DNA of 33,472 bases. Origin: a virus. This document shows positions 1,030 to 27,124 of the stretch, piece after piece. The notes beneath the pieces were generated by a model. That model did no database searches, had not been told where the DNA came from, and worked only from the letters and a program-made list of their open reading frames with translations. How positions within the stretch are numbered: the first letter of the stretch is position 1; each line of letters begins with the position of its first letter. The position numbers were made by a program, and so were the translations under genes. The stretch covers positions 1 to 33,472 of the IMG/VR virus record IMGVR_UViG_3300008113_000525; one strand, written 5' to 3'.

Positions 1030-1063
1030 CCCCTCCGAGATTCGACACTCGGGGGGGTTTTTT
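1030..1063 (+). terminator. rho-independent terminator after the tail tube gene
   Basis: CCCCTCCGAG (1030-1039) pairs with CTCGGGGGGG (1048-1057), with one wobble and an 8-base loop, followed by six T residues. It should end or reduce transcription after the tube gene, raising tube and capsid message over the distal tail genes. Its T tract overlaps the stop codon of the leftward gene that ends at 1062. Confidence 0.88.
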
Positions 1064-1250
1064 ATTGGGTCAGGTTATGAGTCCAAACCTCATTCCCGGT
1101 CTCCGGGTTTTTGTAAACCATAACAGGATCGCACCAACAAGCGCGGTCGGCTAAATGCTCCTTATTCGAATCGAAATCCGGCAAATGGTGAAATTCCGTT
1201 ATCTCATCCGGGAAATTTAAATCCTCATCAATCTTTTTTTTGATCGTCAT
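1062..1250 (-). CDS. small Cys/Trp-rich conserved phage-type protein, opposite strand
   Basis: This 62-residue protein has HHLPDFD near residue 22, then a Cys-Trp-Cys core (RACWCDPVMVYKN) and a C-terminal GNEVWTHN. It resembles small bacterial and phage hypothetical proteins with a CWCxP centre and a terminal V-W-x-H-N, whose function is not known to me. It is the only leftward gene in the virion block, lying between the tube terminator and the chaperone gene, so it behaves like a separately transcribed insert (moron). No good ribosome binding site precedes the ATG. Confidence 0.65.
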   Translation of the reverse strand: MTIKKKIDEDLNFPDEITEFHHLPDFDSNKEHLADRACWCDPVMVYKNPETGNEVWTHNLTQ

Positions 1251-1389
1251 TTCGTGGCCGTTTGAAATTGATAATTGCGTGCCTCAAAAGCGCGGAAACG
1301 TTTCCCTTGAAAAAATGCAGCGACCGGGCAATCAAAAGTTTGTTAGTTTCTGGGTCGATTCGAAACCTTACGACCCGCGTTTTATTCGT

Positions 1390-1418
1390 TTGTTTTTTTT
1401 CTTTCATGTGGCTACATT
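1390..1418 (+). promoter_or_regulatory. possible sigma70-like promoter for the distal tail genes
   Basis: TTGTTT (1390-1395) and TACATT (1413-1418) are separated by 17 bases. The matches are moderate (3/6 and 4/6), but the position makes sense. The tube terminator lies upstream, and the next gene (ATG at 1425) has no Shine-Dalgarno site. A start about 7 bases after the -10 would fall on or beside that ATG, giving a leaderless message. Confidence 0.35.
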
Positions 1419-2065: not shown

Positions 2066-4133
2066 TCAGCTCACAATTGCGATAACAGGCGACCAAACGG
2101 ACCTCGTTAAAGCATTGAGGGACGCGTCTAAACAAATTGAACAATTCGGCAAGGAAACCGAAAAAACCGGCAAGAAAACCGGAGAGGGATTTGGCAGCGG
2201 TTTCGCGAATAGTGCAAGGGGCGGATTGCGACTCGTAACGGAGGGTTTTCGAGACGTTGAAACCGCAGCCGTCGGGGGGTTTTCCGGGATTGCTCAGGGG
2301 TTTATTTCTAAGGCTCTAAACCCGATGACCCTCGCGATCGCCTCATTTGGGGCGGTACTCTATGGAGCCTTTCAGTTTTCAAAGATTGGTGAAGAAAACG
2401 AAAAGATCGGCCGGACCTTTACTCGATTTGCAACGGACGCGGGCCTCAATGCCGAGCTCCTCAAGGAAAAGATTTCGGGGGTTGCCGAGGGATTCGTTGA
2501 CCTCGAGGACATTTTGCCGCGGGCCGGGGAGGCAATCCTCGCACTCGGGAAAAACGCGAACCAACTCCCTCAGATTTTGGAACTCGCGAGAAACATTGGG
2601 GTCCAAACCGGTCGAGACGTGACCCAGGTTTTCGACGAACTCACAAAAGGGATTGAAAACCAAAACGTCAAGCTCCTCCGAAATAACTCGATCCGGCTCG
2701 ATGGCGATAAAGTTTTACGGGATTATGCCGAAGCGAACGACCTCAACGTCAAGAGCCTTTCCGAGGCTGCCAAACAACAGGCATTTTTAAATGCGGCCCT
2801 CGAGCAGGGAAACAAGAAATTTGGAGAGGCCGGAGCTCAGGCCGCCCCCATTCAAGGCGGGATCAAGAAACTCGAGCTCGCATTTGACGACCTTAAGGAC
2901 GCAATCGCGGGAGTCGTAAACTCGAACCTCGGGGCGTTTTTTGCCGATGTTATCTCCGGGGCAGCCTCGGCAACAAAGGCCGTCGCGAATTTCTTCACTC
3001 CCGAAAAGACCGAAGCCGAAATGACCCTCTCGGAAAAGGTCGAGGCAACGAAAAACGAACTTGTTACCCTATCAAACGAGCTCTCGCGGGCCCGCCTGGA
3101 CGCTCCCTATTTGGTCGAAAACCTAAACAAACAGGTCCAGGACGCAAATACGAAACTCATGTCGCTCTCAGCGGCCCAAAAGGCAATCGAGGCCCAGGCG
3201 GCCCAGGCTGCCACCCTGGCCCCCGGAGAGAAGACAATGGGGGAAACCCCTGAACAGGCCGCGGCCCGCATTAAACAGGCGGAGGAGACCGCTAAACGGG
3301 TGGCAGAAATCGAGGCCCAAACCCAACTCGTAAACGAGCAAGCCAAACTCGACGCGCAAGCTCGAGCAAATGAAGCCTCCGCCCTTGACCTTACCGAATA
3401 CCAGGCACGCTCCGACGCTAAACTCCAAATCGACCTCGCTCGAAACCAGGCCGCAATGGACGCGGAGGTGATGAAAAACGCAGCCTCTAAACAAGGGGCC
3501 GAACTCGCTGCGGCCAACTCCCTGGCCCTTGCCAAAAAACAGGCAGCCGATGAGAAGGCAATCACTCAGCAAAAATTCGACTCGGAAAAGGCAGCCGCAG
3601 CCGGTCGAATGAAAATCGAGGAAAACCTCTGGGCAACCGCTTCCCTCCTAGCCTCTGATAATGCTGAATTGACCAAGGCTCTAAACATTGCCCAGGCGGT
3701 CCGGAATACCTATCAGGGAGCCTCCCTCGCACTCGCAACGTATCCTCCCCCCTTCGGTGCAATTGCCGCAGCCTCGACCGTTGCGCTCGGATTGGCCCAG
3801 GTCGCAAAAATCACGGCCGCAAACTCCGGGGCACTCGTTACGGGCGGGACTCCGGGAGTCGACAATCAACCGTTTCTCCTCTCGAAGGGGGAAATCGTGG
3901 CTCCGGCAAAATCATTCGACGAGGTCGTCGAGGGGACCGCGAGACAACGGGGGTTTTCGAAGTCGGGAGACTCAACCGACGAGCTCCTCCGGGAACTCAT
4001 TTCTAAAATGGACTCTCGAGCCGTTGCGATTACAGTCAATACGGACGTGGTAGCGGACGAAAACGGTATTAACAAACTCGTGACAAGAATACGGGACGCG
4101 ATAGACTTTAACTCCGCCCCGTCCCTGGGGTAA
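2052..4133 (+). CDS. tail tape measure protein
   Basis: This 693-residue protein sets tail length. The N-terminus has a charged helical stretch (about 15-45), then a Gly/Phe-rich hydrophobic segment (about 70-115, GGFSGIAQGFISKALNPM and onward) that may interact with membrane at DNA entry. A long Ala/Gln/Glu/Lys coiled coil follows (about 340-540). A second apolar stretch around 555-585 precedes the C-terminal region, which contains GGTPGVDNQPFLLSKGE, a motif type often seen near the end of tape measure proteins. At roughly 1.5 angstrom per residue, a tail near 100 nm is expected. The start overlaps the T frame. Confidence 0.9.
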   Translation: MAATNQLTIAITGDQTDLVKALRDASKQIEQFGKETEKTGKKTGEGFGSGFANSARGGLRLVTEGFRDVETAAVGGFSGIAQGFISKALNPMTLAIASFGAVLYGAFQFSKIGEENEKIGRTFTRFATDAGLNAELLKEKISGVAEGFVDLEDILPRAGEAILALGKNANQLPQILELARNIGVQTGRDVTQVFDELTKGIENQNVKLLRNNSIRLDGDKVLRDYAEANDLNVKSLSEAAKQQAFLNAALEQGNKKFGEAGAQAAPIQGGIKKLELAFDDLKDAIAGVVNSNLGAFFADVISGAASATKAVANFFTPEKTEAEMTLSEKVEATKNELVTLSNELSRARLDAPYLVENLNKQVQDANTKLMSLSAAQKAIEAQAAQAATLAPGEKTMGETPEQAAARIKQAEETAKRVAEIEAQTQLVNEQAKLDAQARANEASALDLTEYQARSDAKLQIDLARNQAAMDAEVMKNAASKQGAELAAANSLALAKKQAADEKAITQQKFDSEKAAAAGRMKIEENLWATASLLASDNAELTKALNIAQAVRNTYQGASLALATYPPPFGAIAAASTVALGLAQVAKITAANSGALVTGGTPGVDNQPFLLSKGEIVAPAKSFDEVVEGTARQRGFSKSGDSTDELLRELISKMDSRAVAITVNTDVVADENGINKLVTRIRDAIDFNSAPSLG

Positions 4134-8930: not shown

Positions 8931-9503
8931 ATGAAAAATAAATTCCCGATCGCAACTCTAAACAATTTCGACATTTTCGCATTTTATGAAAACGCGTTTT
9001 CTTCGGTTGAATGCGAGAGCGTCAAAAAATTGTTTACCGAAATGGAATCGGGAAAAGTAAGCGGAGAGAATAATCTCGACGAGAAAATCAGAAAATCAAA
9101 GGTCCGTTTCGTTGAAAGAGACGACGAGACGGATTGGATTTTCGACAAACTTACGGGATTTGCGTTCAATTGTAATTTGGCCCGTTGGCATTTCCAACTC
9201 GCGGGGTTTTATGAGGGATTACAACTCACGGAATACGGCGAGGACGGGAGTCATTACGATTGGCATATGGACAATGGGACGGGAGAGATGAGCATTCGAA
9301 AACTCTCCCTCATTTTGCTCCTGGACGACGCGGCCGATTACGAAGGCGGGGAGCTAGGATTTATTGGGCTCAACGAAAAAAGAAAATTCAACGCCGGGAC
9401 TCTTATCGTTTTTCCGAGCTATGTCGGACATAAGGTCTACCCGGTAACAAAAGGAACGAGGAGGACGGTTGTCGCTTGGATTAGCGGGGACCCTTACAAA
9501 TAA
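8931..9503 (+). CDS. 2-oxoglutarate/Fe(II)-dependent oxygenase (prolyl 4-hydroxylase-like)
   Basis: The 190-residue sequence carries the double-stranded beta-helix signature of this family: H112-x-D114 in HYDWHMDNG, the distal H167 in FPSYVGHKVYPV, and R177 ten residues later, which should bind 2-oxoglutarate. The segment LILLLDDAADYEGGELGF matches the family core. Members hydroxylate protein or small-molecule substrates using O2 and 2-oxoglutarate. The gene lies between the glycine-rich fibre and the lysis genes, so a fibre or cell-envelope substrate is possible but unproven. There is no signal peptide, so it acts in the cytoplasm. The promoter is probably shared with the tail genes. Confidence 0.85.
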   Translation: MKNKFPIATLNNFDIFAFYENAFSSVECESVKKLFTEMESGKVSGENNLDEKIRKSKVRFVERDDETDWIFDKLTGFAFNCNLARWHFQLAGFYEGLQLTEYGEDGSHYDWHMDNGTGEMSIRKLSLILLLDDAADYEGGELGFIGLNEKRKFNAGTLIVFPSYVGHKVYPVTKGTRRTVVAWISGDPYK

Positions 9504-11013: not shown

Positions 11014-11188
11014 CATTGAGACCCCGAGGACCGTTTTCCGGTACTATCGGGCGGCCCCGTGCGGACCTGGCAAGCTCTTCAAATGCCGGGAGGAGGTCCT
11101 AGAATACGATTTCGACCTATCGAAACGAGAGGATCGTTTGAAGTTTAACGAAATGGGGTTTGAATGCGCGGTACCGGCGCGGCCATAA
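10889..11188 (+). CDS. possible outer-membrane spanin-like (Rz1-like) lipoprotein
   Basis: This 99-residue protein starts with a basic n-region (SKFRKVRH), then a hydrophobic stretch ending FILFASSC, which could be a type II signal with C23 lipidated. The lipobox (ASSC) is imperfect. An ATG at 10922 gives a shorter form lacking the positive n-region, so I prefer 10889. Its first 125 bases lie inside the preceding gene in another frame, an Rz/Rz1-like arrangement. The mature part contains PRTVFRYYRAAPCGPGKLF and more cysteines. AAAGG precedes the start closely. It ends overlapping the RecU-like gene by 25 bases. Confidence 0.5.
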   Translation: MISKFRKVRHAMTLSFILFASSCATFASYIVPRLKDRPLRVDIETPRTVFRYYRAAPCGPGKLFKCREEVLEYDFDLSKREDRLKFNEMGFECAVPARP

Positions 11189-11625
11189 GGGGCGCAAAAG
11201 CTAAATTTTGGGGAGCGAATTTCGAGAATTTGCTCTCCCTCCATTGCCGATTGAATAAAATCGCATTCGAGAAAATCCCCTCCGGTTGCAAATGGGTCGG
11301 AAAAATGGCCGTCCCACAAAAAACCCCCTTCGATTTTATCGCAGCAAAAAACGGGCGAGCCGTTGTTTTCGACGCTAAAACCCTGGACCGCGAAACATTC
11401 CCGAAATCCTCATGTGAACCTCATCAGGTCGAGGCCCTCCATTCATTTGAAATGTCAAAATTGACGGCGGGTTATATTGTTTTTTTCCGGCCTATAAATT
11501 CCGTTGTCTTTTTTACGGCCTCGCAATTGAAAGGTTTACTCCCGCGGTATAGTCTAAAATCAACGGATGGAATAAGTCTAGGAACTGGGTCCGAGTTAAA
11601 TTTGGGGGTTTTGTTCGATGAGTAA
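11164..11625 (+). CDS. RecU-like Holliday-junction resolvase family nuclease
   Basis: The 153-residue protein shows a PD-(D/E)xK layout like RecU: GxxFExL near E21, KTPFDF with D57, VVFDAKT with D70 and K72, and EPHQVEAL with H87-Q88. RecU resolves four-way DNA junctions during recombination and packaging. The location among lysis and fibre genes is unusual, because the recombination genes are in the leftward early block. Late expression would suit removal of branched DNA before packaging. An alternative reading is a host-DNA-degrading or packaging-associated nuclease of the same superfamily. Confidence 0.7.
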   Translation: MRGTGAAIRGAKAKFWGANFENLLSLHCRLNKIAFEKIPSGCKWVGKMAVPQKTPFDFIAAKNGRAVVFDAKTLDRETFPKSSCEPHQVEALHSFEMSKLTAGYIVFFRPINSVVFFTASQLKGLLPRYSLKSTDGISLGTGSELNLGVLFDE

Positions 11626-18493: not shown

Positions 18494-18850
18494 TTAACGG
18501 GAGGTTTCCTCGGCTAAATGTCCTTTCCCGTCGCAATGAGGACATTTGATTTTGATTGGTTTGATCACTTTTTTGGGGAGCTCGTCGTTTGTTCTCCAAA
18601 GGATCGCAAGGTTTCCGGAGACCTCGCACGTTTTCGTTCCGATCGACTCAATGACCCCGGCCCGCTCGAGCTCCGCGAACCTGGGGGAGATTGTGTCCCT
18701 AGTCATTTCCTTAAAATAGTTTGCATGGATCTCTCGAGCGGTCGAAGGCCCGGACATATAAAGGGCCGTGTAAACCTTAAACCGGAGGGGGGAGAGCAAA
18801 CCCTCCGAATCAATCCGCCGATAAGTATCAATCGAAGTCGGGCGTGCCAT
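18494..18850 (-). CDS. winged-helix protein with C-terminal zinc knuckle
   Basis: This 118-residue protein has a winged-helix-like core (about 15-75: LSPLRFKVYTALYMSG, STAREIHANYFK, then SPRFAELERAGVIESIG), typical of DNA-binding regulators or phage replication accessory proteins. Residues about 101-112 (KCPHCDGKGH) resemble a single DnaJ-like zinc-binding knuckle. It could regulate early transcription or replication. The next gene upstream ends three bases before its start. No ligand domain is seen. Confidence 0.65.
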   Translation of the reverse strand: MARPTSIDTYRRIDSEGLLSPLRFKVYTALYMSGPSTAREIHANYFKEMTRDTISPRFAELERAGVIESIGTKTCEVSGNLAILWRTNDELPKKVIKPIKIKCPHCDGKGHLAEETSR

Positions 18851-20199: not shown

Positions 20200-21105
20200 T
20201 TATTTTTTCCGGCTCTCCCTGATGAAATTCTCGACGTGACCGATGAACTCCAACTCCTCCGCCGTATGGTCGCGGTTTTCCTCATGAGCCTTTTTATTGA
20301 AGTATTGAACGATCATGATCGCGTCGTCCATGCCGATTTCGGCGATCGTTTTCCCGACGTATTTCTTGCCGAATGGGACGCGGTATTCCGTGCCGATTGA
20401 GAGCTCGGGGGGATTATTTGAGTTTTCAACCGGCACGGATTTTTGAGGAGCCTCGACAATCATTGCCGCGGGCAACTCAATTTTCGTTATCTCTTTTTTA
20501 CTGGGAGCGGTTTCGACCGGCTCCTCGGCCTGGGCCATTTCCTCGCGGGTATAGATCCCGGAGAGGTCGTTCGGGAATGCCTTTCGAATTGCCAGGCTCT
20601 CGCAAACCTTTGAGAGCATGAGCGCGGGCATTTGGGCCCATAAACCGGAGAGGTCCCCGGCCTTATGCTTCCCGTATTGGTCATCATACTTATGTTTTTG
20701 CGCGTACTCGTCGAAGATCGCAACCGCGACGAGAGGCTCCCGGAAACCCTTTTTATGGACTCCGATTTTACAGGCGGAGGGAGGAGTTTTAGAGAGCCAA
20801 ACGTCTCTCCAGACTCCATCCTCTCCGCACCATTGAGGAGCGGTTTGTCCCTCATAAACCCCGGACCGCTCCGCAACCAGGCGAAAACCGTCGATCGAGG
20901 TCTGAATTTGGACCTTTCCGGTTTTCTTATTTTTGATGAAATAGATTTGTCGGAGGACTGGATCGAGTCCGGTCCGGCGACATTGTTCGATGAACAATTG
21001 CAGCTCGTCGTTTGTTGCTCCCTCGCAAATCGTTCTCTTGATAAGCTCGATTTTCTCGGGGTTGAACTGGATAGACTGATTCGGATTTGTAACGACTAGA
21101 TTCAT
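20200..21105 (-). CDS. bet: Bet/RecT-family single-strand annealing protein
   Basis: This 301-residue protein matches the phage Bet pattern: NDELQLFIEQCRRTGLDPVL near residue 30, then QIYFIKNKKTGKVQIQTSID and GFRLVAERSGVYEGQ, and the later RKAFPNDLSGIYTREEM. Bet proteins anneal complementary strands and promote recombination with the exonuclease. The C-terminal third (after about residue 200) is divergent and contains EAPQKSVPVE and a basic helix. The start at 21105 follows AAAGGAACCACAAAC; an upstream ATG at 21150 adds 15 residues but lacks the common leader. The exonuclease gene lies directly upstream. Confidence 0.92.
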   Translation of the reverse strand: MNLVVTNPNQSIQFNPEKIELIKRTICEGATNDELQLFIEQCRRTGLDPVLRQIYFIKNKKTGKVQIQTSIDGFRLVAERSGVYEGQTAPQWCGEDGVWRDVWLSKTPPSACKIGVHKKGFREPLVAVAIFDEYAQKHKYDDQYGKHKAGDLSGLWAQMPALMLSKVCESLAIRKAFPNDLSGIYTREEMAQAEEPVETAPSKKEITKIELPAAMIVEAPQKSVPVENSNNPPELSIGTEYRVPFGKKYVGKTIAEIGMDDAIMIVQYFNKKAHEENRDHTAEELEFIGHVENFIRESRKK

Positions 21106-21179
21106 GTTTGTGGTTCCTTTCAATTTGTGGTTACAAAACTCTTTTCGCAAACCGAAGAGAGTTTTGCAACCGCTTTTTT

Positions 21180-22049
21180 TTAAATTGTTACTTTTATATA
21201 TTTCGAGCCTTTTTTCCGATACGGGGCGAGGTCAACTCCGGAGAGCTCCGGGATTTTCTTATAATCAACCGACCCCTCGCGCTCGACCCAGGCGATCGAG
21301 ATTTCGGAGTTTGAGATTTGAGTCGCTCCATGCTCGGAGAGGATCCGCTCGGCAAGGGTTTTTATCTCATCATCAATCTCCGCGAGTCTCCGGGAGATTT
21401 GAACGGACGCGACTTTTAAAGCATGGATCCGCTCAATGTCTGGGGAGGTTAAATTTTGGATCGGAGCGGGGACGTTATTCGCGAGGACCTCATCGAGCTC
21501 GGCAATAAACTCGAGGCCGGAGATCGCGAGAGCGTTTTGAAATGCCGGATCCGCCTTAACCTCGAGGACCTTTACCTCTCCGGAGTATACGAAGGCGAGG
21601 AGCGTTTTCGCGTACCCAGTGCAAAGCATTTGCCATTGGACTTGTGAGAAATAATGCTCGGGGATTTTCTCGCAATACTTATTGAATGTTTCGACCCTCG
21701 CGCAGGACTTGACCTCGAGGATCGTTTCCCGATCAACGTCGATCCCGTCAAGGGAGGCGAAAAATCTCTCGTTAGCCGGATGCTCGACAACCATAGGCTG
21801 AAAATTGAACCCTTGAGCGTTCAACTTATCCCGGACGACGGCCTCCCATTCGTGACCCTCGCGAAAAAGATTCTCGAGGTATTGGCTCGGGGCCTCGGTT
21901 TGACCCGTTGCCTTTTCGGAGAGGGTTTTCGCTCTGGACTTGAAAGCTCCCTCGGCTCCGAAAATGTTAGCTATATCGGAGGCCCCGATCCGCGTTTGGC
22001 GGTATTCGTGCCATTGTTTTGACCCTTGCTCGACTTGTATTTTTTTCAT
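21180..22049 (-). CDS. YqaJ-family viral recombinase exonuclease
   Basis: The 289-residue protein shows the YqaJ/lambda-exonuclease core: R-x-GASD (22-25), GHEWE (65-69), SLDG with D101, LEVKS with E112-x-K114, and QVQWQM (136-141). These supply the metal-binding D-E-K nuclease site that degrades 5' strands to feed Bet. The C-terminal helix region (about 200-260) is a likely partner-binding part. The leader before ATG is GAAAGGGAACCAC. It lies between a small early gene and bet and so forms a SynExo pair. Confidence 0.92.
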   Translation of the reverse strand: MKKIQVEQGSKQWHEYRQTRIGASDIANIFGAEGAFKSRAKTLSEKATGQTEAPSQYLENLFREGHEWEAVVRDKLNAQGFNFQPMVVEHPANERFFASLDGIDVDRETILEVKSCARVETFNKYCEKIPEHYFSQVQWQMLCTGYAKTLLAFVYSGEVKVLEVKADPAFQNALAISGLEFIAELDEVLANNVPAPIQNLTSPDIERIHALKVASVQISRRLAEIDDEIKTLAERILSEHGATQISNSEISIAWVEREGSVDYKKIPELSGVDLAPYRKKGSKYIKVTI

Positions 22050-22075
22050 GTGGTTCCCTTTCGTTTGTTTGTTGG

Positions 22076-22327
22076 TTAGTTCAGTTTTTCACTCGGTCCA
22101 ATATCCTCGAGAGTCGGAGACTCATCGGAGAAAAACCCGACTCGCATCCGGCCCCTATCGTCCGTTTCCATGCAAAGGAGAGTCGTTCTCCATTCGTATG
22201 ATTTGACCTCGAGGCCCAGGTTTTCATTTGGTTGATAAAAGAAAAACAACTCCGATTTGTCGGATATGTTTTTATTGTTGAGGAGATTTCTTAAATCCCC
22301 GACGGTTTGGATTGCTCTTTTTTTCAT
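22076..22327 (-). CDS. small early protein, function unknown
   Basis: The start at 22327 follows GAAAGGGACCAC; an upstream ATG at 22417 lacks such a site. This gives 83 residues with an N-terminal helix (TVGDLRNLLNNKNISDKSEL) and a beta C-terminus. The phrase VGDLRNLLxxxxDxxEL is common in small phage hypothetical proteins. No enzymatic motif. The exonuclease gene follows after 26 bases. Confidence 0.6.
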   Translation of the reverse strand: MKKRAIQTVGDLRNLLNNKNISDKSELFFFYQPNENLGLEVKSYEWRTTLLCMETDDRGRMRVGFFSDESPTLEDIGPSEKLN

Positions 22328-22388
22328 GTGGTCCCTTTCTGTTTGTGTCCACAAATTTCCATGATTGATTTTTTTTTGCAAGGGTTTT

Positions 22389-22709
22389 TTAAAATGGGAC
22401 CTCGTCGTCGAAATCATCCTTTCCCTGATTCGCTACAACGGCCTTAAAATCGGTTTTCGGTACGGCCTGGGGTTTCGCTTGGATCACCGGGGCCGGAGCT
22501 CGGGAAACGGCCTCTCCGCTCGAATGGCCGTCCGGGATATACTCCCCGGAAAACCTCGAGCTCCATACCGGGATGGAATCGGACAAACCTCGCCGGATAG
22601 AGGATCCACAACCGCATTTAAAAGCGAAGACCCCAGGCTTAGATTTGTGCATGGCAACCACAAACCCCGAATCCTTACACTGAAAACAGGTCAATCGAAT
22701 CTCTCTCAT
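22389..22709 (-). CDS. zinc-ribbon protein with SSB-like C-terminal tip
   Basis: This is the first gene of the leftward operon, 106 residues. Four cysteines (C8, C11, C32, C34) may bind zinc in a ribbon (TCFQCKDSGF and FKCGCGSS). A Pro/Ala-rich linker (about 65-90, APAPVIQAKPQAVPKTD) leads to DDFDDEVPF at the extreme C-terminus. This matches the acidic SSB tip (consensus DDDIPF) that recruits replication and repair enzymes. It is a small SSB-like or SSB-mimicking protein without a clear OB fold, and should act with the exonuclease and annealase. The start has a GGGGAG site. Confidence 0.65.
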   Translation of the reverse strand: MREIRLTCFQCKDSGFVVAMHKSKPGVFAFKCGCGSSIRRGLSDSIPVWSSRFSGEYIPDGHSSGEAVSRAPAPVIQAKPQAVPKTDFKAVVANQGKDDFDDEVPF

Positions 22710-22729
22710 TAGCTCCCCTTTAATTCTTT

Positions 22730-22793
22730 ATTTCGTAATTTCGTTACCAACCGCAATACTTAAAAACATTATTTCGTAAATTCGTTATTTCGT
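22730..22793 (-). repeat. left iteron cluster: five ACGAAWT heptamers
   Basis: On the minus strand ACGAAAT or ACGAATT occurs at 22730-22736, 22738-22744, 22771-22777, 22779-22785 and 22787-22793. Within each group the copies are spaced 8 bases. The copies read toward the leftward operon, immediately upstream of its first gene. They may be binding sites for a regulator or an initiator. Confidence 0.75.
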
Positions 22794-22799
22794 AACCTT

Positions 22800-23320
22800 C
22801 GGGCGTAATTCCACCTTTTCCCCCTTTCCTTCTAGGAACGGGGTAAGGATTTCAGCGGGAGTCATCCGGCCGCCCGATCTGGATTTCTAAATCCTCAAAT
22901 TCAATCTCTTAAACTTGAGAGCTTAGGATTTCAGACCGACCCGGAGATTTCACTCTCCGAGAGAGGTTTCGAGAGAGGTGTCAACTCTCGACTCTGCACC
23001 ATAACCATTTGAGCCCGTTGGAGGCCATTTCCTCCGTTGGTCATTCCAAATCTGGCAGCGTCCCGTGTGGTTTTTTCCCCAGGAGTTCCGTTGCTCATCC
23101 ATGCACACCCTCCTCCGAGTTAGTTTCCAGGTTTCTTCCAATGTTGTTTCGTGCCTGAAAATTCCGCATCCGACCGGTTTGAAATGTCCTGGATCAGGTC
23201 CCAGGCAGACAATGAGCCTAAGTTTTAGAAGATTAGGCTCAACATACTTCGCTATTTACAAGTGATTTTTGAGTGATATGCTCGGGATCAATTGTTTTTG
23301 TAGCATCTAACAAGTATCAG
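22800..23320. other. structured gene-free control region
   Basis: No believable gene is present. It has several inverted repeats: CGGAGA/TCTCCG (22942-22959), TCGAGAG/CTCTCGA (22969-22991), GGAGG/CCTCC near 23020 and the 9-bp pair at 23213-23241. It ends in a strong terminator. The layout suits an origin, a long untranslated leader or a structured RNA on the plus strand. I saw no tRNA. A sigma70-like promoter could not be assigned here. Confidence 0.5.
23213..23241. repeat. perfect 9-bp inverted repeat
   Basis: TGAGCCTAA (23213-23221) and TTAGGCTCA (23233-23241) flank an 11-base loop. There is no T tract, so it is not a simple terminator. It may be an operator or an RNA stem. Confidence 0.65.
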
Positions 23321-23369
23321 GCCCCGGAGGCCGCCGCAATGGTGAAATCCGGGGTTTTTTTTTTTTTTT
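23321..23369 (+). terminator. strong rho-independent terminator with 15 T residues
   Basis: CCCCGGA (23322-23328) pairs with TCCGGGG (23348-23354) over a 19-base loop, followed by 15 T (23355-23369). It terminates rightward transcripts and isolates the gene-free region from the operon starting at 23541. Inside it, GGAGG and ATG (23339) open a 10-codon ORF MVKSGVFFFF. Confidence 0.85.
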
Positions 23370-23376
23370 AGAGTCA

Positions 23377-23400
23377 ACGAATTAACGAAATAAACGAAAT
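23377..23400 (+). repeat. right iteron cluster: three ACGAAWT heptamers
   Basis: ACGAATT (23377-23383), ACGAAAT (23385-23391) and ACGAAAT (23394-23400) occur on the plus strand. They read toward the rightward operon and mirror the left cluster. Spacing is 8 then 9 bases. Confidence 0.75.
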
Positions 23401-23465
23401 AATTCCCTCCCCTCCTCCTCCCCTAAAACTCATTTAAAAAAAATCACCTCCCCTTCTTTTTCTGG

Positions 23466-23494
23466 TTGCAAGTGTCACCGATTTGACATATAGT
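23466..23494 (+). promoter_or_regulatory. sigma70-type early promoter for the rightward operon
   Basis: TTGCAA (23466-23471) and TATAGT (23489-23494) are separated by 17 bases. The -10 matches 5/6 and the -35 4/6. A start near 23501 leaves a leader of about 40 bases carrying AAAAGGAACCACGAAA before the ATG at 23541. Confidence 0.75.
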
Positions 23495-23497
23495 CAA
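23483..23497. promoter_or_regulatory. candidate operator overlapping the -10 element
   Basis: TTGAC-ATATA-GTCAA is a perfect inverted repeat across the -10 box. A dimeric repressor here would block RNA polymerase. No protein is known for it; the winged-helix product is one candidate. Confidence 0.4.
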
Positions 23498-23540
23498 TTC
23501 ATAGGCCGGACGATCCGGTCGAAGAAAAGGAACCACGAAA

Positions 23541-23849
23541 ATGACAAACCATGAAATCGCAAAAACAATCATTGCACAAATCCAATTCGCAGACCCCCGC
23601 GCTATGTGGGCCTGGGGAGCAAAAAATTTCGTTGTGCAAACCAACGGAGTTAAATTCCAGGTAAACGGACTCAAGTTTAAAGGTCATGTTGTTGTTACCC
23701 TGACCCCGGCCGATACTTACACGATCGAACTCGGAAAACTTAACCTCCGCGCAAATGCGAAAAATTTCGGATGGAACTCAATCGCAAAAATTGAGGACGT
23801 TTATTGCGATAACCTCATGGAAACAATCGACGCGGCAATCGAAAGATAA
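23541..23849 (+). CDS. conserved small early phage protein
   Basis: This 102-residue protein starts MTNHEIAKTIIAQI and contains MWAWGAKNFV, GVKFQVNGLKF and HVVVTL, ending VYCDNLMETIDAAIE. I recognise the pattern AKTIxxQI...WAWGAKNFV...FKVNG...F+G from small hypothetical proteins of many phages and bacteria; its function is not known. It is the first gene after the early promoter. A GGCCCC/GGGGCC stem follows. Confidence 0.7.
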   Translation: MTNHEIAKTIIAQIQFADPRAMWAWGAKNFVVQTNGVKFQVNGLKFKGHVVVTLTPADTYTIELGKLNLRANAKNFGWNSIAKIEDVYCDNLMETIDAAIER

Positions 23850-23858
23850 CCAAACCCA

Positions 23859-23876
23859 GGCCCCACGGACGGGGCC
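23859..23876 (+). other. short GC hairpin after the first early gene
   Basis: GGCCCC (23859-23864) pairs with GGGGCC (23871-23876) over a 6-base loop. The following bases are ATTTAAAA, not a T run, so it is more likely an RNA stabiliser or attenuator than a full terminator. Confidence 0.4.
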
Positions 23877-23897
23877 ATTTAAAAAGGAAACAACCAA

Positions 23898-24122
23898 ATG
23901 GAACTCTATTTCTACCTTACCGCGACAAATATCGGAGTAAAAACTCTCCCTAATGGAATGTTTCAAATTTCATTCGATACTCAACAGGGAAAAGGGGCCT
24001 GGAACTTTAGAAGTGAAACCAAGGTTAAAAAAGTTTTGAGCGAATTGATCCGAAACAACGAGGTCCGGGTTTATTCGTTCGGCCCTGATTTTAAACCAAA
24101 CTTTCAAAAACCAAGAGTCTAA
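23898..24122 (+). CDS. small early protein, function unknown
   Basis: This 74-residue protein starts MELYFYLTATNIGVKTLPNG and then has IRNNEVRVYSFGPDFKPN. AAAAGGAAACAACCAA precedes the ATG. It is mainly beta and basic at the C-terminus. No family is recognised. It is part of the four-gene early set at the head of the rightward block. Confidence 0.55.
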   Translation: MELYFYLTATNIGVKTLPNGMFQISFDTQQGKGAWNFRSETKVKKVLSELIRNNEVRVYSFGPDFKPNFQKPRV

Positions 24123-24161
24123 TCAATAAAATGTCCCAGGGACGGGACGAAAGGAACCACT

Positions 24162-24389
24162 ATGAAAATCTTTGAAGCTCAAATTATCCGCAAATCAAAC
24201 CGCTCCTCCTGGCACGTGACCCCCCAGGGAGAGCAATTTAACGGACTCTCGGTCCTGGACCGCTCGACTTGCTTCGGCAATCAATCCGAGGCAATCATCG
24301 CAGCGTGTAGCGCAATGGCGAACTCGGTCGACTCGGACGAACTCGTTTTTCAAATCACCGAACACATGAGCGAAGGGGGCGAGGAATGA
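24162..24389 (+). CDS. small early protein, function unknown
   Basis: This 75-residue protein begins MKIFEAQIIRKSNRSSWHV and has CFGNQSEAIIAACSAMANS later, then an acidic C-terminus SEGGEE. The site GAAAGGAACCACT before the ATG matches the shared early leader. Its TGA overlaps the next ATG as ATGA. Not recognised. Confidence 0.55.
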   Translation: MKIFEAQIIRKSNRSSWHVTPQGEQFNGLSVLDRSTCFGNQSEAIIAACSAMANSVDSDELVFQITEHMSEGGEE

Positions 24390-24550
24390 GCTATTACGAA
24401 CCGCAGGAAACCCGCCTCGCATTCGTGCAATGCCTGGATTGCGACGAGATCCACGATTTTGCGAAAACGATCGACGACCTCAAGGATTTCGACCATTGTC
24501 CGGATTGCAAGTCGACAAATTTGGTCCAGGATTACGATTATTTTTGGTGA
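24386..24550 (+). CDS. 54-residue zinc-ribbon protein
   Basis: The sequence has CLDC and CPDC with about 23 residues between, the two halves of a rubredoxin-type zinc ribbon (VQCLDCDEIHDF and FDHCPDCKSTNLV). It is strongly acidic. Starts at the ATGA overlap with the previous gene, and a strong stem-loop follows its stop. Could act as a host transcription or translation modifier; not proven. Confidence 0.65.
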   Translation: MSYYEPQETRLAFVQCLDCDEIHDFAKTIDDLKDFDHCPDCKSTNLVQDYDYFW

Positions 24551-24560
24551 AGAATTAAAA

Positions 24561-24588
24561 ACCCCCGGAGAGTTTAAGCTCCGGGGGT
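24561..24588. other. perfect 10-bp stem-loop after the early zinc-ribbon gene
   Basis: ACCCCCGGAG (24561-24570) pairs with CTCCGGGGGT (24579-24588) with an 8-base loop. On the plus strand no T tract follows; on the minus strand TTTTTAAT follows, so a terminator would work on leftward transcripts. On the rightward transcript it may attenuate between early and terminase genes. Confidence 0.55.
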
Positions 24589-24629
24589 CCCAGGAATGAC
24601 ATAACAACGACGAAAGGAATACTCCCCTA

Positions 24630-24971
24630 GTGAAGCACAAAAAAAGAAAGGAAACAAAAAAAATTGACAGGCGGTTAAATACGGTCAAAATTGACGACAT
24701 GGCGAAACGCACTCTCACGATCCCGAAAAATAATTCCCTAAATCTCGATTTCCTGGTCAAAAACGACCTGGACCTCTACGAACTCCTCGAGCATCTCGAG
24801 GTCTCCCTCCTCATCGAAGCGATCAAGAAAAACAACGGGAATTATTCCGCAGCCGCTCGAATGCTCCGGATCAACCGAACCACGTTCATGATGAAAATTT
24901 ACAAAATCCGGCATTTCGACGTGCCATTTCCGAAGGATGCAGAAGAGAAACAAGAAACGTCGGGTATTTAA
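24630..24971 (+). CDS. Fis-type helix-turn-helix protein
   Basis: GTG at 24630 gives 113 residues with a basic start (KHKKRKETKK); ATG at 24699 is an alternative. Residues about 53-95 (LEVSLLIEAIKKNNGNYSAA and MLRINRTTFMMKIYKI) form the Fis/NtrC C-terminal HTH (HTH_8). There is no AAA+ or receiver domain. Such proteins bind and bend DNA. Its place just before terminase suggests a late-gene regulator or a packaging-initiation helper. AAAGGAAT sits 12 bases from GTG. The start is uncertain. Confidence 0.7.
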   Translation: MKHKKRKETKKIDRRLNTVKIDDMAKRTLTIPKNNSLNLDFLVKNDLDLYELLEHLEVSLLIEAIKKNNGNYSAAARMLRINRTTFMMKIYKIRHFDVPFPKDAEEKQETSGI

Positions 24972-25000
24972 CCGATCAAACCAAACTAGTCGGAATTAGT

Positions 25001-25315
25001 ATGCCAAAAGGAATTAAATACGGCGGGAGAAAAAAGGGAACTCCGAACAAATACACGGCCTCGGTCAAGGCCGCGTTTAAAGAGGCATTCGACCTGATGC
25101 AAGAAAACCCAGGCGTGAACCTATTCGAATGGGCCCAGGCGAACCCGACCGACTTCTATCGCCTATGCTCGAAGCTCATCCCAACAACGACCGAGCATAC
25201 CGGGGCCGAAGGGAAACCGATCGAGATAAAACCCGTGACCAACTTCGACGCGCTCCCGATCTCCGACCTCGAAGCAATCGACGCAATTATCACTCGGTCC
25301 ACTAAACTCGAATGA
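25001..25315 (+). CDS. small terminase-like subunit
   Basis: This 104-residue protein lies directly before the large terminase, overlapping its start by 4 bases. It begins MPKGIKYGGRKKGTPNKYT, a basic AT-hook-like start common to these small proteins, then VKAAFKEAFDLMQENPGVNL with FYRLCSKLIPT. It resembles phage small terminase-position proteins that recognise DNA for packaging. The sequence is too divergent for a firm family call. Confidence 0.6.
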   Translation: MPKGIKYGGRKKGTPNKYTASVKAAFKEAFDLMQENPGVNLFEWAQANPTDFYRLCSKLIPTTTEHTGAEGKPIEIKPVTNFDALPISDLEAIDAIITRSTKLE

Positions 25316-26781
25316 CCTTATCCGCGATCGACCTCCGGGCCGCTCAACTCGCACTCTCTCGGAAATCCTTTAAGCATTTCGTAAGGCATACCAAACCGGA
25401 TTATGAGTTTAATTGGCATCACGATTTTCTCTGCAAGAAACTCCAGGATTTCGCGGATAAGAAAATCAAAAGGCTCATGGTTTTTATGCCTCCGCGGCAC
25501 GGGAAAAGCGAACTCACTTCCCGGAGGTTTCCGGCCTGGCTCCTGGGGAGAAATCCGAAAACTAAGATTATCGCGACGAGCTACGCGGCCGAACTCTCCT
25601 CCTCCTTCAACCGGGACGTGCAACGGATCATCGACGACGAGAAATATTCCGAACTCTATCCCGAGACGAAACTAAACGGAGCAAACGTCCGGACGACGAA
25701 ATCCTGGCTCCGAAATAACGACATTTTCGAAATCGTAAACCACGGAGGATTTTATCGGTCCGCGGGAGTCGGGGGAGCAATCACCGGCCTCGGGGGCGAT
25801 TATCTCATCGTTGACGATCCCTTTAAAAATTACGAGGAGGCAAAAAGCCCGACGATCCGTCGAAAGGTTTTCGAATGGTACACCTCGACCCTATACACCA
25901 GGCAGGAAAAGGACGCAGGGATCCTCCTCATTCAAACCCGATGGCATGAGGACGACCTCGCGGGAATGCTCCTCCAAATGCAAAAGAAGGGCGGAGAGTT
26001 TGCCGACTCCTGGGAGGTCGTAAACTTTCCGGCAATCCTCGAGTATCCGTCCCCGGAGGATCCCAGGCAGCCGGGGGAGCCCCTCTGGCCCAACAAATAC
26101 GACTCGCGATGGATGCAAATCACGAAAACCTCCCTCGGCTCCTTTCAGTTTTCCGCGCTCTACCAACAAAACCCGACCCCGGACGAGGGGCAATTTGTCC
26201 GGGCCTCCTGGCTCAAAACCTACGACCTCACTCCGGACCATTTCGACAAGATTTGCATTTCCTGGGATATGACTTTCGGCTCTGATAAAAAGACCGGGGA
26301 TTTCGTCGTCGGGGCCGTGTACGGGAAACGAGGATCCGCGATCTACCTCCTCGACCGGGTCCGCGGTCAATGGGATTTCCCGGAGACGATCGCGCAATTT
26401 AAACGGCTCTCCGAAAAGTGGCCGAAGGTTTCCGCGAAGCTCATCGAAGCAAAAGCAAACGGCCAGGCCGTTATCGACTCGCTGAAAAAACAAATCTCGG
26501 GAATCATTCCGATCGTCCCCACGGCCTCGAAGGCTTCCCGCCTGGCAGCGTGCCAACCGTTATACGAGGCCGGAAATATCTTTTACCCGTCGAGCCTAAT
26601 CGCGCCCTGGATCGGGCAGCATATCGACGAGGTCGTCGGGTTTCCAAACGTCAAAAATGACGACTCGGTCGATGCGGAGACCCAGGCAATCTCCTGGCTG
26701 AATACTCACTCGAGCAAGTTTTCGGACGCGTTCACGGATTTTATTCCCTCCGGGTTTGATAATGGGCAAATAAATTGGTAA
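25312..26781 (+). CDS. terL: terminase large subunit
   Basis: The 489-residue protein has the ATPase Walker A-like PPRHGKSE (60-67), Walker B YLIVDDP (164-170) and a coupling region, followed by an RNase H-like nuclease domain (about 315-470) whose first acid is in SWDMTFGSDKKTGDFV. TerL cuts concatemers and pumps DNA through the portal. The size is normal. Start by ATGA overlap with the small subunit. Portal follows after 10 bases. The packaging style (headful or cos) cannot be decided from this sequence; no cos was seen. Confidence 0.95.
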   Translation: MTLSAIDLRAAQLALSRKSFKHFVRHTKPDYEFNWHHDFLCKKLQDFADKKIKRLMVFMPPRHGKSELTSRRFPAWLLGRNPKTKIIATSYAAELSSSFNRDVQRIIDDEKYSELYPETKLNGANVRTTKSWLRNNDIFEIVNHGGFYRSAGVGGAITGLGGDYLIVDDPFKNYEEAKSPTIRRKVFEWYTSTLYTRQEKDAGILLIQTRWHEDDLAGMLLQMQKKGGEFADSWEVVNFPAILEYPSPEDPRQPGEPLWPNKYDSRWMQITKTSLGSFQFSALYQQNPTPDEGQFVRASWLKTYDLTPDHFDKICISWDMTFGSDKKTGDFVVGAVYGKRGSAIYLLDRVRGQWDFPETIAQFKRLSEKWPKVSAKLIEAKANGQAVIDSLKKQISGIIPIVPTASKASRLAACQPLYEAGNIFYPSSLIAPWIGQHIDEVVGFPNVKNDDSVDAETQAISWLNTHSSKFSDAFTDFIPSGFDNGQINW

Positions 26782-26791
26782 CGTTTCAACC

Positions 26792-27124
26792 ATGGGATTA
26801 CTCGATTACATTTTGGGACGAAATTATACCGACTTAACTCCGACCCCCGCGACGACCGAGCGCGTCCGAGGAGTCGAGGTCAAGGTCGTTGAAATCGGGA
26901 CCCCAGGTACCGAAATTTATGCCGGTTATCTCTCCGAGGAATACCTAAAGGAACTCACCGGCAAGGATTGGGCCGATAAAGTCGATATGATGAGACGCTC
27001 GGACGCAAACGTCCGAATGGTCCTAAACGCGATCAAGCTCCCCCTCAAATCCTCTCCCTGGACGATTGCGGTCCGGGAGCAATCCGAAGAGGCCGAACTT
27101 TTTTCGACATTACGCACGCGGTAA
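26792..27124 (+). CDS. portal protein, N-terminal part before a frameshift
   Basis: The 110-codon ORF reads like the start of a DUF935/Mu gp29-type portal, including MRRSDANVRMVLNAIKLPL and SSPWTIAVREQSEEAE. It then ends with a short out-of-frame tail (LRTR) and TAA. The rest continues one frame back from the T6 run at 27099-27104 (FDITHAVKNSDELGGYNGLK). One extra T, or a -1 slip at TTT TTC, restores a single protein of about 845 residues with the next ORF. A portal is essential, so this is a sequencing or assembly error or a regulated slip, not a dead gene. Confidence 0.75.
   Translation: MGLLDYILGRNYTDLTPTPATTERVRGVEVKVVEIGTPGTEIYAGYLSEEYLKELTGKDWADKVDMMRRSDANVRMVLNAIKLPLKSSPWTIAVREQSEEAELFSTLRTR

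Follow-up and report, generated by a model that had tools for sequence, protein, structure and literature searches.

An uncultured phage, represented by a record of 33,472 bases (referred to here as the window), carries clustered copies of the seven-base word ACGAAWT between two divergent operons, and the question raised by this locus is what reads these copies and to what effect. Their arrangement is best explained as three triads acting as operator arrays, at which one small, cooperatively binding protein regulates both operons, a reading to which we give about an even chance of being correct; readings of the arrays as a replication origin or as a partition site are weaker.

The record possesses a direct terminal repeat of 114 bases, so the window is probably a complete genome. 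Its leftward operon opens with a CxxC protein followed by RecE and RecT. The C-terminus of the CxxC protein, DDFDDEVPF, resembles the tail of single-strand binding proteins. Pfam and PHROGs scans of the window proteins place small genes, a Fis-type HTH protein, terminase, portal, protease and capsid among the rightward genes, and they recognised no replication initiator, integrase or ParA in the proteins covered. The features referred to below are as follows.

1228-1407, minus: RHH-like protein of 59 aa, the sole ribbon-helix-helix (RHH) candidate for the arrays
18494-18850, minus: winged-helix-like protein of the leftward operon, candidate binder
20200-21150, leftward operon: RecT
21180-22049, leftward operon: RecE
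22389-22709, minus: first gene of the leftward operon, CxxC protein with SSB-like acidic tail
22722-22744, minus: left triad 2, ACGAAAT-ACGAAAT-AAGAATT, 8-bp period, third copy degenerate
22771-22793, minus: left triad 1, ACGAAAT-ACGAATT-ACGAAAT, exact 8-bp period, kept in L002 and L003
23255-23282, plus: sigma-70-like promoter of the short RNA, TTTACA-16-TATGCT (consensus scan)
23289-23372, plus: predicted short RNA (about 85 nt, with an inferred start), intrinsic terminator at its end
23377-23400, plus: right triad, ACGAATT-ACGAAAT-ACGAAAT, periods 8 and 9, kept in L002 and L003
23466-23494, plus: sigma-70-like promoter of the rightward operon, TTGCAA-17-TATAGT (consensus scan)
23541-23849, plus: first gene of the rightward operon, followed by Fis-type HTH, terminase and portal
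24630-24971, rightward operon: Fis-type HTH protein

Layout of the arrays and of the gap between the operons

Exact ACGAAWT copies start at 22787, 22779, 22771, 22738 and 22730 on the minus strand and at 23377, 23385 and 23394 on the plus strand (n = 8), with start-to-start spacings of 8, 8, 33 and 8 bp on the left and of 8 and 9 bp on the right. The first-pass annotation had reported these eight copies, five to the left and three to the right, oriented with their operons and mostly spaced by 8 bp, and all of this was recovered. With a ninth, degenerate copy (AAGAATT, 22722-22728, minus), the layout becomes one of two left triads and one right triad. About 590 bp separate the left and right arrays, which face outward. 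The left array sits within AT-rich DNA (about 31-35% GC), and its triads adjoin the ribosome-binding site, triad 2 being 12 bp from the start codon of the leftward operon. On the other side, the right cluster had been described as preceding the rightward operon; it does lie upstream but is not adjacent, as it is found directly 3' of the terminator of the short RNA, about 65 bp upstream of the promoter at 23466-23494 and 140 bp from the first rightward gene.

Single copies of the word are at chance level genome-wide, with 28 found against 23.45 expected, so only their clustering is meaningful. That the motif might be equally common elsewhere, named beforehand as grounds for dismissing it, thus holds for the isolated word but not for the arrays, which are unique in the genome: exact same-strand pairs 8 or 9 bp apart occur at the arrays and nowhere else. 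In 300 dinucleotide shuffles a mean of 0.003 pairs (one pair in total) and no triple were obtained. Poisson probabilities at the genome-wide rate are about 4e-9 for the left array and 1e-6 for the right, but the shuffle outcome is the safer guide because the regions were chosen after the fact.

The gap had also been called gene-free, whereas it contains a strong terminator and a predicted short RNA with its promoter at 23255-23282. The promoters and the terminator are shown as sequence features. The terminator consists of a stem (23319-23357) and a subsequent T run, and a terminator occupies the same place in L016 and L017 (in L017, read by eye). The RNA has a predicted fold of -25.7 kcal/mol (z -2.75), better than shuffles; no Rfam family reached its gathering score for RNA of the gap, and the weak matches are those of chance. 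The longest run identical to the close relative L003, 173 bp at 23186-23358, contains the promoter at 23255-23282 and most of the predicted RNA, while its flanks differ by about 7-13%. Sequence partly similar to the rightward promoter is found upstream of the right operon of L016. For the leftward operon, no sigma-70-like promoter was found in the consensus scan. Ahead of the rightward operon, a promoter, a short RNA and a terminator succeed one another in an order that recalls the pR'-6S RNA-tR' late control of phage lambda, but in the window a second promoter follows the terminator and no Q-like protein was identified, and the resemblance is one of layout only.

Conservation in relatives

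All eight copies are kept in the close relatives L002 and L003. L003 is a relative of about 94% identity, with a divergence of about 8% around the arrays. Between 22710 and 23540, 52 of 831 positions differ from L003, and none of the 48 core motif positions has changed. Three array changes were found in L003 (22723, 22731 and 22737), all A/T swaps at W or spacer positions, one of them within the degenerate ninth copy. The first rightward gene is replaced in L003, and the arrays are nevertheless kept. More distant relatives carry no ACGAAWT arrays and have unrelated repeats in that place. A lack of conservation, which had likewise been set as grounds against the motif, is thus contradicted by the close relatives and borne out by the more distant ones. 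No DNA related to 21000-26900 was found among named phages, and none related to 22690-23540 among plasmids.

What stands in place of the arrays differs between relatives. In L006 the place is taken by an O-like gene that contains 11-bp iterons, L017 has a prim-pol gene and CTGATTACAA repeats, and L016, on the same contig as L006, has TTTTGACA repeats. The O-like gene of L006 is a candidate replication gene from its internal iterons and its place, with no family match. The 11-bp iterons, GATTnnGTACA, are located at 4356-4410 of L006 (4955-4999 of L016), inside this lambda-O-like gene. In L017, six CTGAYTACAA-like repeats (2850-3139, all on the plus strand) surround the end of the prim-pol gene and precede the Fis-type gene.

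The same arrays in ParA-RHH elements

A scan of IMG/VR for three ACGAAWT copies 8 or 9 bp apart matched at least 120 stretches, against 62 for a control motif of identical base composition, about a dozen of these 62 with 8-bp spacing. Repeats of 9 bp were set apart, as the control motif also matched mainly such repeats. Among the matches listed, a ParG-like RHH gene is present in 18 of 33 distinct records with exact 8-bp triads and in none of 12 control records with 8-bp arrays (Fisher p = 0.001), many of the 18 being from one phage family, so that their effective number is smaller. This association of arrays with RHH genes is a statistical link. In many of the 18 the RHH gene adjoins a ParA gene of about 215 aa; the 15 records with arrays and no RHH gene include long microsatellite-like arrays and short fragments. 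Many database arrays directly precede a start codon.

Named carriers are Vibrio phage VPHZ6, V. parahaemolyticus pVPGX2, an Aeromonas veronii plasmid and Halomonas pTHAF12_c, and the ParA-RHH cassettes of these Vibrio, Aeromonas and Halomonas elements, among others, share both the motif and the 8-bp period with the window. The parA promoter of VPHZ6, of pVPGX2 and of the Aeromonas plasmid is flanked by outward-facing arrays about 40-65 bp apart, and arrays precede other genes there too; those of the window are about 590 bp apart and stand beside recombination and small early genes. Cassettes of ParA and a ParG-like RHH protein were seen in the plasmid-prophages L065, L061, L064, L072, L125, L227, L230 and L231. 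The 8-bp ACGAAWT arrays are likely the sites of these plasmid-prophage cassettes. Against the PDB, the profile of the array-linked RHH proteins matched SvtR (E 0.06) and TP228 ParG (E 0.095) best, both weakly. A literature search for any described ACGA-type array returned nothing relevant.

An 8-bp spacing had been considered unusual and taken to point to a cooperative filament. It is the ordinary period of RHH-type operators, such as those of MetJ and TP228 ParG; cooperative side-by-side binding stays plausible, even though the premise of an unusual spacing fails. The same arrays occur mainly in plasmid-prophages with ParA and RHH genes, and the 8-bp ACGA boxes for this reason fit cooperative RHH-type binding. 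In Escherichia coli, the met boxes are 8-bp tandem palindromes (AGACGTCT) read cooperatively by RHH dimers of MetJ. The window has its boxes in direct repeat, and no relative of MetJ was found. The tetramer box of TP228 is ACTC, with spacers of 4 bp. TP228 ParG binds tetramer boxes with AT-rich spacers, its RHH dimer occupying the box array cooperatively, and is also a repressor (PMC7308502, PMC5016525). The window arrays resemble the type Ib system ParFG of TP228 (parH centromere, parFG operator) in their tandem short boxes, A/T-rich spacers, period of about 8 bp and combination of operator and site array. They differ in their box, ACGA, and in belonging to a phage with neither ParA nor a ParG-like protein recognised.

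Candidate binders and readings of the arrays

No protein of the window is supported as the array binder by what its sequence suggests. A profile of nine ParG-like RHH proteins, run against all window ORFs of at least 25 codons, gave a best E of 0.98, Pfam RHH_1 had no match in the window, Pfam and PHROGs gave no ParA match for the window proteins scanned, and phmmer with a ParA of the ParA-RHH class matched no window ORF. The Fis-type protein at 24630-24971, named for binding assays by the first-pass annotation, was rejected as binder: its close orthologs are conserved in phages that have no ACGAAWT motif, which makes it an unlikely binder. The winged-helix-like protein at 18494-18850, which was named along with it, has a low-confidence structure model and no relatives among viral contigs or phages.

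The phage's own RHH-like protein at 1228-1407, an ORF below the usual cut-off, might bind the arrays and regulate both operons, as a special case of the operator reading. No other RHH-like protein was found in this phage, and 8-bp periods suit RHH proteins. Its assignment as RHH-like is suggested by its sequence pattern and by a weak match to the RHH-like protein of L019. Its AlphaFold model, however, has a mean pLDDT of 68 and two helices with no strand, and a structural search with this model gave no useful match. L017, which is arrayless across its 19.4 kb, has a close ortholog in which the strand RVVRFRID is unchanged; another with that strand is found on the contig of L015, whose matching regulatory region is missing. 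In the phage's protein, the likely contact residues also depart from the NFK/NFR of the array-linked RHH proteins. With the arrayless ortholog and the differing contact residues, this protein is not supported as the binder, and its role as regulator of both operons is decidedly doubtful. Its gene and that of a 62-aa protein together occupy 1062-1407 (minus) between rightward late genes, and this gene pair is conserved in distant relatives.

A replication origin had been offered as a second meaning of the symmetry, with the arrays as flanking iterons bound by an unrecognised initiator, for example the winged-helix protein. The argument for it is one of position: in two relatives this place is taken by a candidate replication module (the O-like gene of L006, the prim-pol gene of L017), whereas the window has no recognisable initiator, and the surroundings of the left array are AT-rich. 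However, the DnaA box TTWTNCACA has no match in the whole window, no protein scanned matched an initiator family, a period of 8 bp is short for iterons, the arrays are far apart and outward-facing, and the replication label of the L006 gene itself comes from iterons and place. An origin is unlikely. The arrays may instead be a partition-type site, that is, a centromere-like array derived from the ParA-RHH plasmid-prophages and read in trans by the RHH protein of a resident plasmid or prophage. Motif, period and outward layout all match those elements, but neither a ParA nor a ParG-like gene was recognised in the window, and the operon-proximal position of the arrays, kept in two relatives, is also consistent with gene control; we consider such a site quite unlikely. 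It is very doubtful that a phage with no partition genes borrows a resident RHH protein in trans, be it for its divergent operons or for its own stability. The repeats might also act in the 5' leaders of both transcripts, for example as docking sequences for ribosomes or proteins, as their orientation with the operons, the left triads abutting the ribosome-binding site and the database arrays before start codons would suggest. The right triad is upstream of the rightward promoter and thus outside the rightward leader, barring terminator read-through, which makes an RNA element highly improbable.

One factor acting on both operons, as first proposed, therefore remains the best reading of the locus, although no binder within the window is supported. 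The operator reading is favoured by arrays that are placed at both operons, oriented with each of them, conserved in their core and clustered far beyond chance. Against it stand the lack of an array-binding protein among the candidates searched and the lack of a detected sigma-70-like promoter for the leftward operon; also, the distance from the right array to its promoter is far for a simple repressor. From these arrays we infer a binding mode and a regulatory role, whether repression or activation. A small dimeric DNA-binding protein, most likely with an RHH binding mode, would occupy 8-bp units side by side, each unit formed by an ACGA box and a 4-bp A/T spacer. It would govern together RecE and RecT on the left and the small early genes, terminase and head genes on the right. 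The left triads would occupy the DNA just before the first leftward gene, and the right triad would act from a position between the terminator of the separate short RNA and the rightward promoter, close to that terminator. Elsewhere linked to ParA-RHH partition cassettes, the 8-bp array of ACGA boxes here stands alone as the likely control element between two operons; if this is confirmed, one array design would serve both partition and phage gene control. ACGAAWT repeated every 8 bp also offers a simple motif for finding ParG-like systems in metagenomes.

No host was found, and terminase relatives in genomes were at most 38% identical. Amid the rightward genes, a 2OG-Fe(II) oxygenase (8931-9503) and a RecU-like Holliday junction resolvase (11164-11625) were also observed.
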